Origin: a virus | IMG/VR virus record: IMGVR_UViG_3300009686_000010 | Coordinates: 1-34,953 of that record | DNA: 34,953 bases | Strand: one strand, 5' to 3' | Shown: one piece after another, positions 30,607 to 34,557 of the stretch | Position numbering within the stretch: the first letter of the stretch is position 1 | Layout of the letters: the number at the start of each line of letters is the position of its first letter | Program-made: the position numbers and the translations under genes | Notes under the pieces: generated by a model | The model's input: only the letters and a program-made list of their open reading frames with translations | What the model was told of the DNA's origin: nothing | Database searches by the model: none

Positions 30607-32179
30607 AAACAGACTTACCGCTTTGGCCCAAAGGATGAATCCTTTTGGCAAGCCAGAAACAGACACACAGGCGGACGCACGGGCTGCACAGTCGAGCACG
30701 CTCAATTACATGTCGGTTCAGACAGTGGACCCGGCGCGATTGGCCGGTGCATTTGGAGCCGCTGACCAAGGCGATATTTCAGCCCAGGCGATGCTGTTTG
30801 AATTGATCGAAGAGCACGACCCGCACATCTTCAGCGAACTCGCCAAACGCCGTCGCGCCGTGACGGGCTTGGGCTGGCAGCTCGAACCCAGAGATGACGC
30901 GCCGCAAAGCGAACTCGACCGCTGCAGGGAACTGGCCGACATGACGCGCGACATTCCCCAATTTGAAGACGCGCTGTACGACCTGACCGATGGCATTGGC
31001 AAAGGCTTTGCTGCTCTTGAAATTGAGTGGCGCACCGGCGCACAGTGGACGCCTGCCGCCCTGCATTGGGTGCCCCAACGCATGATGCGTATTGAACGCG
31101 AGACCGGGAAAATGCAGCTGCTCAAAAACGGCATGCCCGAGCCCTTGCGCCAATGGGGCTGGGTGGTGCACGAGCACAGCTCCAAAAGCGGCTACATCGA
31201 GCAAGCGGCCCTGTTCAGAGTGCTGGCGTGGACGTATGCCTACAAGGCTTACAACGTGGTGGACATGCAAAAGTTTCTGGAGAAATACGGCATGCCGCTG
31301 CGCCTGGGCAAGTTCCCGGCGGGCATTGGAAAAGACCAGCAAGCCGCTTTGCTCAAAGCCGTGCGCAATATCGGCTCAGACGGTGCAGGCGTGGTGCCCA
31401 GCACCATGACGATTGAGTTTATTCAGTCGATGAAGAGCGGCAGTGTGGACGACTTCTTAAACGCCGTGCAGTACTGGGAACGCAAACAAAGCATGGCGAT
31501 TCTGGGCGGCACGCTCACCAGCCAGGCCGATGGTAAAAGCAGCACCAACGCACTGGGCAAAGTGCATAACGAGGTGCGTCGCGAAATCATGCTGCACGAC
31601 GTGCGCCAGATCGCACCCACCCTTCGGCAGCAATTGCTTACGCCGATGGCGCTGTACAACGGCATGTTCTCCGCAGACCGACTCCCTAATTTTTGCTTTG
31701 ACACGGTTGAAACTGTGGATCAAAAAATGATGGTCGATATGCTGGGCAAGGCTGCAGAAATGGGAATGGAAATTGATGTGGACTTTGCCCATAAGGTCCT
31801 ACAAATCCCGAAAGCCGCCAAGGGCGCCAATTTGCTCAAGGTCTCGGCACCATCAAACAATTCCACCCCAGAGAACAAAGCCGCCACCGATGCCGCATTG
31901 ACGCGCCTGGTGGCGCTGGCCAAGGACAAAGCGGGCGCGGGCGCAGGCGACACCGATGTGTTGCCCGCCTACATCGCCCAACTGTCAGCCCTGGCCGCGC
32001 CCCATGAGCAAGCCCTGGTGCAACAAATCGCCGCCATCGTGGCCGATGCGGGCGGCTATGACGACGCCATCGAAGCCATGGAACAACTGACCATCAACAC
32101 CCGCCCGACAGGCTTGGCCGAAACCATAGCCCTCGGCCTGGCCACAGCCCATTTGGCGGGGCGGGCGGGGTTAAGTTGA
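30599..32179 (+). CDS. Portal protein (Mu gp29, DUF935)
   Basis: A 526-residue portal (Mu gp29 is 512). ATG 30599 (MIKNRLTALAQRMNPFG) follows TGGGA at eight bases; ATG 30590 is an alternative. Features are SELAKRRRAVTGLGWQLEP, ALEIEWRTG, and VRREIMLHDVRQIAPTLRQQL, typical of DUF935. It forms the ring at the head vertex. It overlaps the terminase end by eight bases. Confidence 0.93.
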   Translation: MIKNRLTALAQRMNPFGKPETDTQADARAAQSSTLNYMSVQTVDPARLAGAFGAADQGDISAQAMLFELIEEHDPHIFSELAKRRRAVTGLGWQLEPRDDAPQSELDRCRELADMTRDIPQFEDALYDLTDGIGKGFAALEIEWRTGAQWTPAALHWVPQRMMRIERETGKMQLLKNGMPEPLRQWGWVVHEHSSKSGYIEQAALFRVLAWTYAYKAYNVVDMQKFLEKYGMPLRLGKFPAGIGKDQQAALLKAVRNIGSDGAGVVPSTMTIEFIQSMKSGSVDDFLNAVQYWERKQSMAILGGTLTSQADGKSSTNALGKVHNEVRREIMLHDVRQIAPTLRQQLLTPMALYNGMFSADRLPNFCFDTVETVDQKMMVDMLGKAAEMGMEIDVDFAHKVLQIPKAAKGANLLKVSAPSNNSTPENKAATDAALTRLVALAKDKAGAGAGDTDVLPAYIAQLSALAAPHEQALVQQIAAIVADAGGYDDAIEAMEQLTINTRPTGLAETIALGLATAHLAGRAGLS

Positions 32180-32310
32180 GGGATTTCCTATACGTCATCA
32201 TCACAACATTTCGAGTCATTGCAACGTTAATTGGTTACTTGACGCTGGCTTTATGGATGCTCGGCAAGTTCAACATGGGCACTTTTGTTTATTACTTTCT
32301 ACTGGGTTAA
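32176..32310 (+). CDS. Small membrane protein (44 aa), TTG start
   Basis: TTG at 32176 overlaps the portal stop (TTGA) and has GGGG six bases upstream. The product is hydrophobic with two possible membrane spans, around FLYVIITTFRVIATLIGYL and GTFVYYFLLG. It ends three bases before the next ATG. No family known; it is probably an accessory gene between portal and gpF. Confidence 0.5.
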   Translation: MRDFLYVIITTFRVIATLIGYLTLALWMLGKFNMGTFVYYFLLG

Positions 32311-32313
32311 AAA

Positions 32314-32553
32314 ATGAGTGAAGCAACATCACAGATCGGGGGAGACCACTACGCAAAGAAAAATATCCAGCCTTGGACCGCAATGGAGGATTGGATGAGC
32401 CCGGCCCAGTTCGCCGGTTTCCTCCGGGGTAATGTCATCAAGTATGTGGCGCGCTGTGAAGACAAGGGCGGCCTGGAAGATCTCAAAAAAGCAAGTCACT
32501 ACCTGGACAAGCTTATTGAGTTTCAAAGCCAGCCTGACGCAACGCTGCCATGA
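32314..32553 (+). CDS. DUF3310 protein
   Basis: A 79-residue protein with the DUF3310 signature IGGDHY followed by the IKYVARCEDKGGLEDLKKASHYLDKLIE segment. DUF3310 is usually in phage replication regions and related to SaV-type proteins; here it lies between portal and gpF in the late operon. It overlaps gpF by ATGA. Its function is unclear. Confidence 0.88.
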   Translation: MSEATSQIGGDHYAKKNIQPWTAMEDWMSPAQFAGFLRGNVIKYVARCEDKGGLEDLKKASHYLDKLIEFQSQPDATLP

Positions 32554-33851
32554 CCGATCCGGCACAACTCCCCTTCAAAGAAGCAATCGATTTTTTCAAG
32601 CAAAAAATCAAGCTTCCCACCTCTGGCTATTCAGACGTTTGGCAAGAACAGCACAGCCTGTCTTTTGTGGTGGCCGGTGCGCAGACCGATGCACTGGTAG
32701 GCGATTTTTACAACGCACTTTTAGCGGCCAAAGAAAAGGGCACCGGCTACGCGGCCTTCAAGCAAGATTTCGACACCATCGTGGCCAAACACAAATGGGC
32801 TCACAACGGCACACCCGGCTGGCGCAGCAGAGTCATTTACGACACCAACATGACGTCCGCCTACAACGCGGGCCGCTGGCAACAGCAATGGGCACTGCGC
32901 GACGAGATGCCTTATTTGCAATACGTGCATACCACCCGAGAGCATCCGCGCTCCTGGCACAAGGCTTGGAACGGCACCATCCAGCCCATCACATCATCGT
33001 GGTGGAGCACGCACTATGCGGCCAATGGCTACGGCTGCAAATGCCGTATTGATCCGCTCACCAGGTCGCAAGCTGAATCACTCTGGAAAGCCGCAGGTAA
33101 AACCGGGCCGGACCCCGAGCCCGTGGTGGAATGGGAAGACGTGGTTGTCGGAAAAAATGGCAGTAACCCACGCACCGTGCGCACCCCAAAAGGCATTGAC
33201 CCAGGCTTTGCCCACAACCCCGGCAAGGCGTATCTTGAGCCCCACACTGTGCCCCCGCTCACTGGCTATGACGCAGTGCTCAAGGAACGTGGCACGCCAT
33301 GGCCCGCAGGTGTTGATCGGCCCTTGCTGCCCAAACCAACGCGAGTACCCAGCAGCGTTCAACTGCCGCCCGATACGCCACCCATGCAGGCCGTGACTGA
33401 TTTTTTGGATGTGTTTGGTGCGACACCAGAGAAAGGTATCGTATTCATGGACGCTGCCGATACTCCCGTGGCGGTCAGCAAGGCGCTCTTTATAAGTGGT
33501 GCAGATAAAGAAGCCAATAACTTCAAATGGCTGTCCGCACCCGACAAAGCCCGGCGGCTGGAAAACATCAACCTGCTGGCAATGACCTTGGCCGAGCCTG
33601 ATGAAATTTGGTGGGCCTGGGTAAAAGACACATCACCAGATGGCAAACAAGTGGGCCGCTGGCGGCTCAAGCGTCGCTATTTGCGCACCTTTCAAATTGA
33701 AGGTGCCCAGGAATACGGCGTGACTGTTTTCGAGTGGGGCGAAAAGGGGTGGACCGGTGCGACCACATTCACCGCATCACAAAAAACGGATGAAGCCCGC
33801 CTCGCGTACTTTGAAAAGCAGCGCATTGGCCGCCTTGTGTTCAAGAAATAA
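32550..33851 (+). CDS. Mu gpF minor head protein fused to a PBECR2-like nuclease domain
   Basis: A 433-residue protein. Residues about 30-175 are the Mu gpF (SPP1 gp7) domain: VIYDTNMTSAYNAGRW, HTTREHPRSWHKAW, and NGYGCKCRIDPL (C163, C165). A proline-rich linker follows. Residues about 285-433 match the PBECR2 phage nuclease pattern: VAVSKALF near 308, AEPDEIWWAW at 349-357, RRYLRTFQ at 375-382 and WTGATTF at 401-407. The C-terminal domain belongs to the Barnase/EndoU/Colicin-E5-D/RelE-like group. It would be carried in the capsid and could enter the next cell with DNA as an effector. Confidence 0.85.
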   Translation: MTDPAQLPFKEAIDFFKQKIKLPTSGYSDVWQEQHSLSFVVAGAQTDALVGDFYNALLAAKEKGTGYAAFKQDFDTIVAKHKWAHNGTPGWRSRVIYDTNMTSAYNAGRWQQQWALRDEMPYLQYVHTTREHPRSWHKAWNGTIQPITSSWWSTHYAANGYGCKCRIDPLTRSQAESLWKAAGKTGPDPEPVVEWEDVVVGKNGSNPRTVRTPKGIDPGFAHNPGKAYLEPHTVPPLTGYDAVLKERGTPWPAGVDRPLLPKPTRVPSSVQLPPDTPPMQAVTDFLDVFGATPEKGIVFMDAADTPVAVSKALFISGADKEANNFKWLSAPDKARRLENINLLAMTLAEPDEIWWAWVKDTSPDGKQVGRWRLKRRYLRTFQIEGAQEYGVTVFEWGEKGWTGATTFTASQKTDEARLAYFEKQRIGRLVFKK

Positions 33852-33852
33852 A

Positions 33853-33874
33853 CACGGCCCTCAAAAGGGCCGTG
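33853..33874 (+). other. Perfect hairpin between gpF and gpG
   Basis: CACGGCCCT (33853-33861) pairs with AGGGCCGTG (33866-33874) around CAAA. No T-run follows on the plus strand; on the minus strand it is followed by TTTATTTCTT, but no leftward gene ends here. It may affect gpG expression or mRNA stability. Confidence 0.5.
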
Positions 33875-33939
33875 AGTGTGGATCAGGTATTGGGCAGTAG
33901 CGCTTTCACGCAGTCTGACGTCACCACAGCAGAAATTAT

Positions 33940-34557
33940 ATGCAATTAACCTACAAAATTCAAACAGAGTATTTGTCCTTGGCACTCAAGGCGGCTAAAA
34001 ACAGCATTGCTCGACCAAACAAGCTTTTCCACGTCATTGGAGCTTCCGAATTGACCGTAACCCAACGCCGCCACGACCAAGGACTCGCCCCAGACGGAAC
34101 GCCTTGGGCACCGCTGGCCAAGTCCACATTGCACGCCATTATTGAGAAACGCCAACATCAAGTCACACGCGTGGCAGGCAAGCGAGACGGTGCTCGATCA
34201 GACTTTCGGGCCGCCCAAAAAATCATGGCCGGAAAGCGCATTCTTTTTGATCGTGGTGACCTGCTGCGCTTTTACTATCAAGTAAACGGTGACGACGTGG
34301 TCATTACTACGATGGACCAGCGCAAGGCCGCCTGGCATCACTTCGGTACTGGAACCCATGGGCCCAAAGGTGCAAGTTATGAAATTCGGCCCAAGGTCGC
34401 CAAAGCGCTGGCATTTGGTGGTCTTGTCAGAAGCCGGGTAATCCACCCCGGCATCCCGGCCCGCCCCTTGGTCGGCTTCCCAGACGCTGACCGCAGCATG
34501 ATCGGCCAGGTCGTCTCAGACCACATCACTCAAGTCATCCGCCAAGCCCGGCCATAG
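33940..34557 (+). CDS. Phage virion morphogenesis protein (Mu gpG)
   Basis: A 205-residue protein. The segment DGTPWAPLAKSTL near 51-63 and the GDLLRFYYQVNGDDVVI and HHFGTGTHG segments match the gpG (tail completion / virion morphogenesis) family. It ends the rightward late operon. In Mu the next gene is protease I, but here the prophage ends after 273 bases. Gene I is found at the other end of the element on the opposite strand. Confidence 0.88.
   Translation: MQLTYKIQTEYLSLALKAAKNSIARPNKLFHVIGASELTVTQRRHDQGLAPDGTPWAPLAKSTLHAIIEKRQHQVTRVAGKRDGARSDFRAAQKIMAGKRILFDRGDLLRFYYQVNGDDVVITTMDQRKAAWHHFGTGTHGPKGASYEIRPKVAKALAFGGLVRSRVIHPGIPARPLVGFPDADRSMIGQVVSDHITQVIRQARP

Follow-up and report, generated by a model that had tools for sequence, protein, structure and literature searches.

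A structured RNA beside gene F of Mu-like phages as a candidate antidote to a predicted PBECR2 nuclease

The minor head protein of the Mu-like phage studied here carries a nuclease-like domain of the PBECR2 family at its C-terminus. This raises the question of what role the PBECR domains of phage heads perform, and of how the making of such an enzyme leaves the phage's own production unharmed. The phage is the whole IMG/VR virus record IMGVR_UViG_3300009686_000010 (34,953 bases), which is referred to as the window. The gene of the protein, gene F, is separated from gene G by a structured noncoding RNA of 88 nucleotides (nt), and the presence of this RNA among relatives follows the predicted catalytic residues of the domain. 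All results presented in this work are computational.

PBECR domains fused to MuF and portal proteins have been described by Iyer et al. (2017, PMC5512222). They proposed that Mu F orthologs with an intact PBECR domain are RNases delivered into the host, and judged the C-terminal domain of Mu's own F to be inactive. MuF polymorphic toxins have been described by Jamet et al. (2017, PMC5576092), and the C-terminal extensions of many proteobacterial MuF proteins are uncharacterised (PMC5576092). In SPP1, the portal brings gp7, the MuF prototype, into the procapsid, and assembly does not require it (PMC6316719). Searches of the open-access literature returned no account of an RNA partner for PBECR or MuF proteins. 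The fusion of MuF and PBECR is therefore not new (Iyer et al., 2017); what is new is the RNA adjoining gene F.

The structured RNA and the predicted catalytic residues

Three sequence types (A, B, and C) were identified in the F-G gaps of the window's clade, and the window carries type A (Table 1). The covariance model R1 scores the window RNA at 82 bits. The model R2, which was built from type B only, without the window or its type, scores the window gap at 22.6 bits (E 7e-4 in 354 kilobases, kb), and all 20 of its matches in 588 kb of other loci are located directly 3' of F. Compensatory changes, where both sides of a pair have changed, are found in 10 of 22 pairs of type A, 13 of 26 pairs of type B, and 11 of 28 pairs of type C. 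The covariation scores are 0.21-0.27, compared with 0.12-0.13 for shuffled controls (0 of 500 as high) and less than 0.09 for slid structures. In type B (p 0.001) and in a mixed, mostly alpha- and gammaproteobacterial gap group (p 1e-7), the complementarity of the first-hairpin loop to a downstream loop exceeds that to the downstream parts of other sequences. In the automatic test of loop complementarity, no difference from the controls was seen for types A and C, although some type C pairs match by eye. The gap RNA has no match in Rfam 15.

The occurrence of the RNA was compared with the state of the PBECR2 domain among 134 relatives with a readable gap. The RNA is present in all relatives that have both K326 and R336 (110/110) and in only three of the other 24. 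When eight residues are required, 108 intact domains have the RNA and one does not, whereas the remaining domains are divided into eight with and 17 without it. When the alignable domain columns were scanned blind, R336 (p 1e-21), K326 (p 8e-19), and T405 (p 9e-9) came out, in this order, as the top predictors of the RNA. Among 11 comparisons with no branch of the MuF tree in common, residue loss and RNA loss coincide in 9-10, and none shows the opposite (p 0.002-0.004). Both the residues and the RNA are lost in locus L195, which is among the nearest relatives of the window on the MuF tree. The type of the RNA changes six times on the PBECR2 tree, compared with 18 times on the MuF tree and 18 times on the G tree. 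Joint exchange of domain and RNA is explained by linkage, but the loss of the RNA alongside active-site residues is not.

The preliminary description of the window, made from its sequence alone, had identified gene F as a minor head protein carrying a PBECR2-like domain. Pfam profile searches confirmed this by recovering both domains (Table 1), with the PBECR2 match at 85.9 bits against a cut-off of 27.1 and the full profile (1-120) covered, and the motifs quoted for the domain are present (EPDEIWWAW from E349, RRYLRTFQ from R375, and WTGATTF from W401). PBECR2 is matched by all 95 diverse relatives of alignment A3, and of the 184 frames with PBECR2 in related loci, 180 have it fused to a MuF domain. 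The window keeps all predicted catalytic residues, and its domain has K326, R336, E352, R375, Y377, W401, T405, and R425. D301, R375, W401, R425, and G427 are invariant in A3, R336 is arginine in 88 of the 95 relatives, and position 405 is serine or threonine in 92. P350, D351, and E352 are also invariant, but this conservation is to be taken with caution because the searches required the PDE motif; K326, R336, R375, W401, T405, and R425 lie outside the search patterns.

The AlphaFold2 model of the domain is confident (predicted local distance difference test score, pLDDT, 92.7; predicted template modelling score 0.87) and consists of a helix (58-75) followed by four strands (79-88, 94-110, 113-124, and 127-135, model numbering), which is the BECR order as defined by Iyer et al. 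(2017). R336 is placed in the helix and T405 in strand 4 of the model, as in BECR domains, which have histidine (or arginine in one family) in the helix and serine or threonine in strand 4. A weak structural match (Z 3.2, root-mean-square deviation 4.2, 91 residues) was found to 6CP9, the BECR-fold tRNase CdiA-CT of Klebsiella pneumoniae 342, whose active site consists of K157, Y160, H170, R252, and T255 (PMC9086364). Both share the helix followed by four strands and the set of lysine, histidine or arginine, and threonine. The alignment ends at model residue 138 and 6CP9 residue 261, and T405 falls on T255 only if the last seven residues are ungapped. CdiA-CT differs in its contact-dependent delivery and its protein neutraliser, and no sequence similarity to the domain was found. 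Searches of PDB sequences with the domain and with the 95-row profile returned nothing relevant, and PADLOC returned no match. The NTF2-like and fatty-acid-synthase rows of the Foldseek search were below significance and were treated as noise. Judged by its sequence and model, the PBECR2 domain of the window looks active and is predicted to be a metal-independent RNase.

Exchange of the cassette and orphan copies of the RNA

The C-terminus behind the same MuF part varies among related phages. It is PBECR2, MuF_C-type (Mu, B3, KS10, and others), HExGH metallopeptidase-like (Vibrio and Pseudoalteromonas phages), divergent PBECR2, or missing, as in the F protein of Chromohalobacter phage YPCBV-1 (263 amino acids, aa). 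The C-terminal type switches at least 11 times on the tree of the MuF part, and well-supported branches force at least six switches for PBECR2. These proteins have the MuF N-terminus with exchangeable C-terminal domains that characterises MuF polymorphic toxins. The MuF_C domains of B3, Mu, and others were also considered as degenerate PBECR2 domains and rejected, since no profile similarity was found.

Exchange was also identified between close relatives. Among the 23 close-relative clusters of PBECR2 carriers, 11 hold pairs in which PBECR2 has a DNA identity of 53-74% and MuF 86-98%, with portal and G at 75% or more where measurable. The reverse exchange, with MuF diverged and PBECR2 kept, was found in none of 20 clusters. 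RcapMu and RcWaterboi, which are both sequenced phages of Rhodobacter capsulatus, differ almost only in the cassette across the head region compared. The swapped block extends from the linker (about 140 bases 5' of the domain) to just upstream of the ribosome-binding site of G and takes in the F-G gap of 85-110 bases. The linker, PBECR2, and the RNA are swapped as one cassette between related phages.

The RNA also occurs alone in a few bacteria. Most matches to the type A model or pattern in the genome scan are inside F-RNA-G prophages, and a coarse scan of 369 sampled genomes of one class gave no match beyond a known prophage. Four exceptions (G020, G911, G910, and G1018) carry the RNA with no adjoining match to F, PBECR2, or G. 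A Methylococcaceae metagenome-assembled genome, G020, has RNAs of types C, B, and A in tandem (L269:1698-2035, G020:C13; 27, 72, and 79.5 bits, respectively), flanked by a DNA-methylase-like gene and a gene like the C-terminus of ParC (both named by eye). G911 (L282) has the same C-B-A array with a degraded middle unit, and G910 (L280) has a single type A RNA near the same ParC-like gene. PBECR2 was not found in G910, G911, and G1018, and G020 additionally carries an F-RNA-G prophage. The assemblies of G020, G911, and G910 are of the metagenome type and may be incomplete. In G1018 (L286, G1018:C12:39527-39560), a type A RNA with an apparent G start directly adjoins CRISPR-like repeats, and this RNA may either be left over from a phage or be an antidote that was captured. 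The orphan copies give indirect support for neutralisation in trans. Orphan immunity arrays are familiar in polymorphic toxin systems, and the arrays identified here would, by analogy, be their RNA-made counterparts.

Readings of the nuclease-RNA pair

The reading that we favour, and consider somewhat probable, is that PBECR2 is a virion-borne RNase effector and the 88-nt RNA is its antidote. The RNA is suggested as the antidote because it is kept only with intact predicted catalytic residues and is carried alone by a few bacteria. We infer that the MuF part of F docks on the portal inside the head and that PBECR2 is packaged, ejected with the DNA, and cuts RNA in the newly infected cell. The preliminary description had also thought of F as an effector ejected with the DNA, and the profile match, the intact predicted catalytic residues, the gene context, and the literature support that idea. 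The RNA would bind the nuclease and keep it harmless in the phage-producing cell, possibly as a structured decoy that occludes the active site much like ToxI RNA does in ToxN, with the hairpins of several subfamilies forming a kissing pair. Nuclease and RNA would pass between related phages as a unit, and orphan copies of several RNA types may protect bacteria from several nuclease alleles. Whether these phages represent a class of phage-delivered RNases whose immunity is a structured RNA 3' of the gene, swapped as a cassette and countered by bacterial arrays of orphan RNA types, is a claim that we hold to be evenly balanced. Should the RNA act in trans, the conflict between phages and bacteria would gain a new layer, in which RNA confers immunity to injected phage proteins, and the RNA would be a new family.

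The closest functional likeness is to type III toxin-antitoxin systems (ToxIN and CptIN), where a pseudoknotted RNA inhibits an RNase (PMC5086642). Both have an RNase or predicted RNase adjoining a structured RNA, pseudoknotted in several subfamilies, with RNA types that track the protein. However, the protein here is PBECR2 instead of the ToxN fold, it is fused to a virion part, and orphan RNAs occur in bacteria. A single 88-nt unit is located 3' of the gene here, whereas tandem repeats and a terminator are located 5' of the toxin there (PMC5086642). The pair is not filed as a type III system because the family definition, tandem repeats upstream of a ToxN-type gene, does not describe it, and it is best read by analogy as functionally like these systems but not a member. 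The PBECR proteins of Iyer et al. (2017, PMC5512222; PF18810) share the domain, the MuF fusion, the predicted RNase role after ejection, and, in one of six families, an arginine that replaces the usual helix histidine, but the portion of that paper considered here mentions no RNA partner. MuF polymorphic toxins (PMC5576092) share the MuF N-terminus, the interchangeable C-terminal domains, and the occurrence in temperate phages; they mostly have a small protein gene 3', whereas a noncoding folded RNA is found here.

Several points weigh against the antidote reading. The presence of the RNA was scored by a gap length of at least 60 nt (45 nt in the first test), with the cut-off set after inspection, and most alpha- and gammaproteobacterial types are scored by gap length with no covariance model. 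Locus L038 has H336 and retains the gap; L222 and L236 also retain it, with poor domain alignment. In about ten cases an intact domain is followed by a longer insert, with no recognisable RNA directly 3' of F. The orphan array was identified at a single locus, shared by three related Methylococcales metagenome-type assemblies (G020, G911, and G910). Foldseek searches of PDB and BFVD with the domain model gave no significant match, and two contact-dependent-inhibition toxin entries, one of them 6CP9, were reached by structure comparison at Z of only about 3.

Relatives L054, L101, L155, L163, L193, and L241 have intact PBECR2 residues and an open reading frame of 77-115 aa (one GapR-like by eye) in the place of the RNA. 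These frames, or unrecognised sequence there, could be protein replacements of the antidote or could be counterexamples.

Alternative explanations assign the RNA or the domain other roles. The RNA could be a cis-acting element of the F-G transcript, such as the nuclease's own cut or binding site, an attenuator, or a promoter that sets the levels of F and G, with no inhibition in trans. We regard this as rather unlikely. The RNA is positioned exactly between F and G, several members have a TATTATA-like sequence between the RNA and G, and an autoregulatory site would likewise vanish with the active site. However, G directly follows F in phages with substituted residues, so G does without the RNA there; the RNA type does not track G, given its changes on the G tree; and neither F nor G adjoins the orphan RNAs, three of which stand in tandem. 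The same orphan RNAs, where they occur in bacteria in which no PBECR2 was found, are left unexplained if the RNA is a required partner of the nuclease (a cofactor, a guide, or an RNA cargo packaged with F). That role is consistent with both the joint loss with active-site residues and the joint exchange, and it is decidedly unlikely in our judgement.

A very improbable explanation is that PBECR2 is a structural or nucleic-acid-binding part of F and no enzyme here, as proposed for phage Mu. Relatives without R336, K326, or T405 retain the remaining domain, and the judgement of inactivity for the Mu domain (PMC5512222) agrees with it, but the window has every predicted catalytic residue together with the RNA. 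It is hardly credible that F belongs to the ordinary MuF polymorphic toxins and that its immunity factor is a protein, encoded for example by the DUF3310 gene or the 44-aa gene upstream of F. A few relatives with intact PBECR2 do have the gap frames of 77-115 aa mentioned above, but the F-G gap of most relatives is too short for a gene, and G follows F after 88 nt in the window, with no small immunity frame 3' of F. The small F-G frames of some relatives were considered as a general immunity gene and rejected; they form no single family by eye and are missing in most loci. The preliminary description had pointed to small genes around 32.2 kb as a possible partner. Both genes there were rejected, the DUF3310 gene because a search of the other related loci did not find it and it is not conserved with PBECR2, and the 44-aa gene because it has no family match (Pfam and PHROG). 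Its statement that no obvious immunity gene is present holds for proteins (139 of 162 loci have an F-G gap of at most 150 nt), but it passes over the structured RNA immediately 3' of F, which is the likely partner.

The coupling of RNA and residues gives a direct handle on the role of PBECR domains in phage heads, consisting of a defined RNA, defined predicted catalytic residues, natural pairs of active and inactive forms, and the two phages RcapMu and RcWaterboi.

Neighbouring genes and related loci

The region at 28.4-34.6 kb of the window consists of a DUF1804 gene, an unclassified gene in the terminase position, a Mu-type portal gene, F, and G. The features in and around the cassette are listed in Table 1.

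Table 1. Features of gene F, the adjoining RNA, and gene G in the window
Feature	Position	Strand	Basis
Gene F, minor head protein (MuF, linker, and PBECR2), 433 aa, ATG start	32550..33851	+	Open reading frame; phrog_220 'minor head protein and DNA pilot', E 1.4e-76
Phage_Mu_F domain, residues 55-167, presumed portal-docking part	32712..33050	+	PF04233, E 6.1e-12
PBECR2 nuclease-like domain, residues 284-432	33399..33845	+	PF18810, E 3.2e-24; conservation; model pLDDT 92.7
Structured noncoding RNA, type A, candidate PBECR2 antidote, 88 nt	33852..33939	+	Covariance models; covariation; folding z -3.2
First hairpin, 9-base-pair stem CACGGCCCU/AGGGCCGUG, loop CAAA, immediately 3' of the F stop codon	33853..33874	+	
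G homolog (Phage_tail_S, virion morphogenesis), 3' edge of the exchanged cassette	33940..34557	+	PF05069, E 1.5e-15; breakpoints in relatives

The interval between portal and F (32176-32553) has two small genes, the 44-aa gene and the gene of the 79-aa DUF3310 protein. The PHROG families matched by the DUF3310 protein are annotated as nucleotide kinase. The DUF3310 gene is probably a recent insertion, as suggested by its occurrence in no other related locus searched.

The phage of L007 encodes a second, divergent PBECR2-like protein with no MuF fusion. Its gene (L265:1269-1859, G001:26768-27358) is located upstream of the packaging genes, and no RNA was found 3' of it. Conserved, structured-looking noncoding gaps are also located 3' of F in phages of the MuF_C type (L033:4267-4376, L263:5249-5358, L260:5240-5349, L029:4228-4337, and L250:3531-3640). 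One kind of these gaps has a hairpin like the T-arm of tRNA (GATTCGAAC), and another kind is common to B3 and L250. ARAGORN identified no tRNA in the gaps of MuF_C phages, and these gaps may be RNA partners of the MuF_C domain. In Vibrio and Pseudoalteromonas phages (L035:3646-4592 and L036:3631-4685), F with the HExGH metallopeptidase-like end is followed by a gene of 66 or 76 aa and then by G, and this small gene is a possible protein immunity gene.
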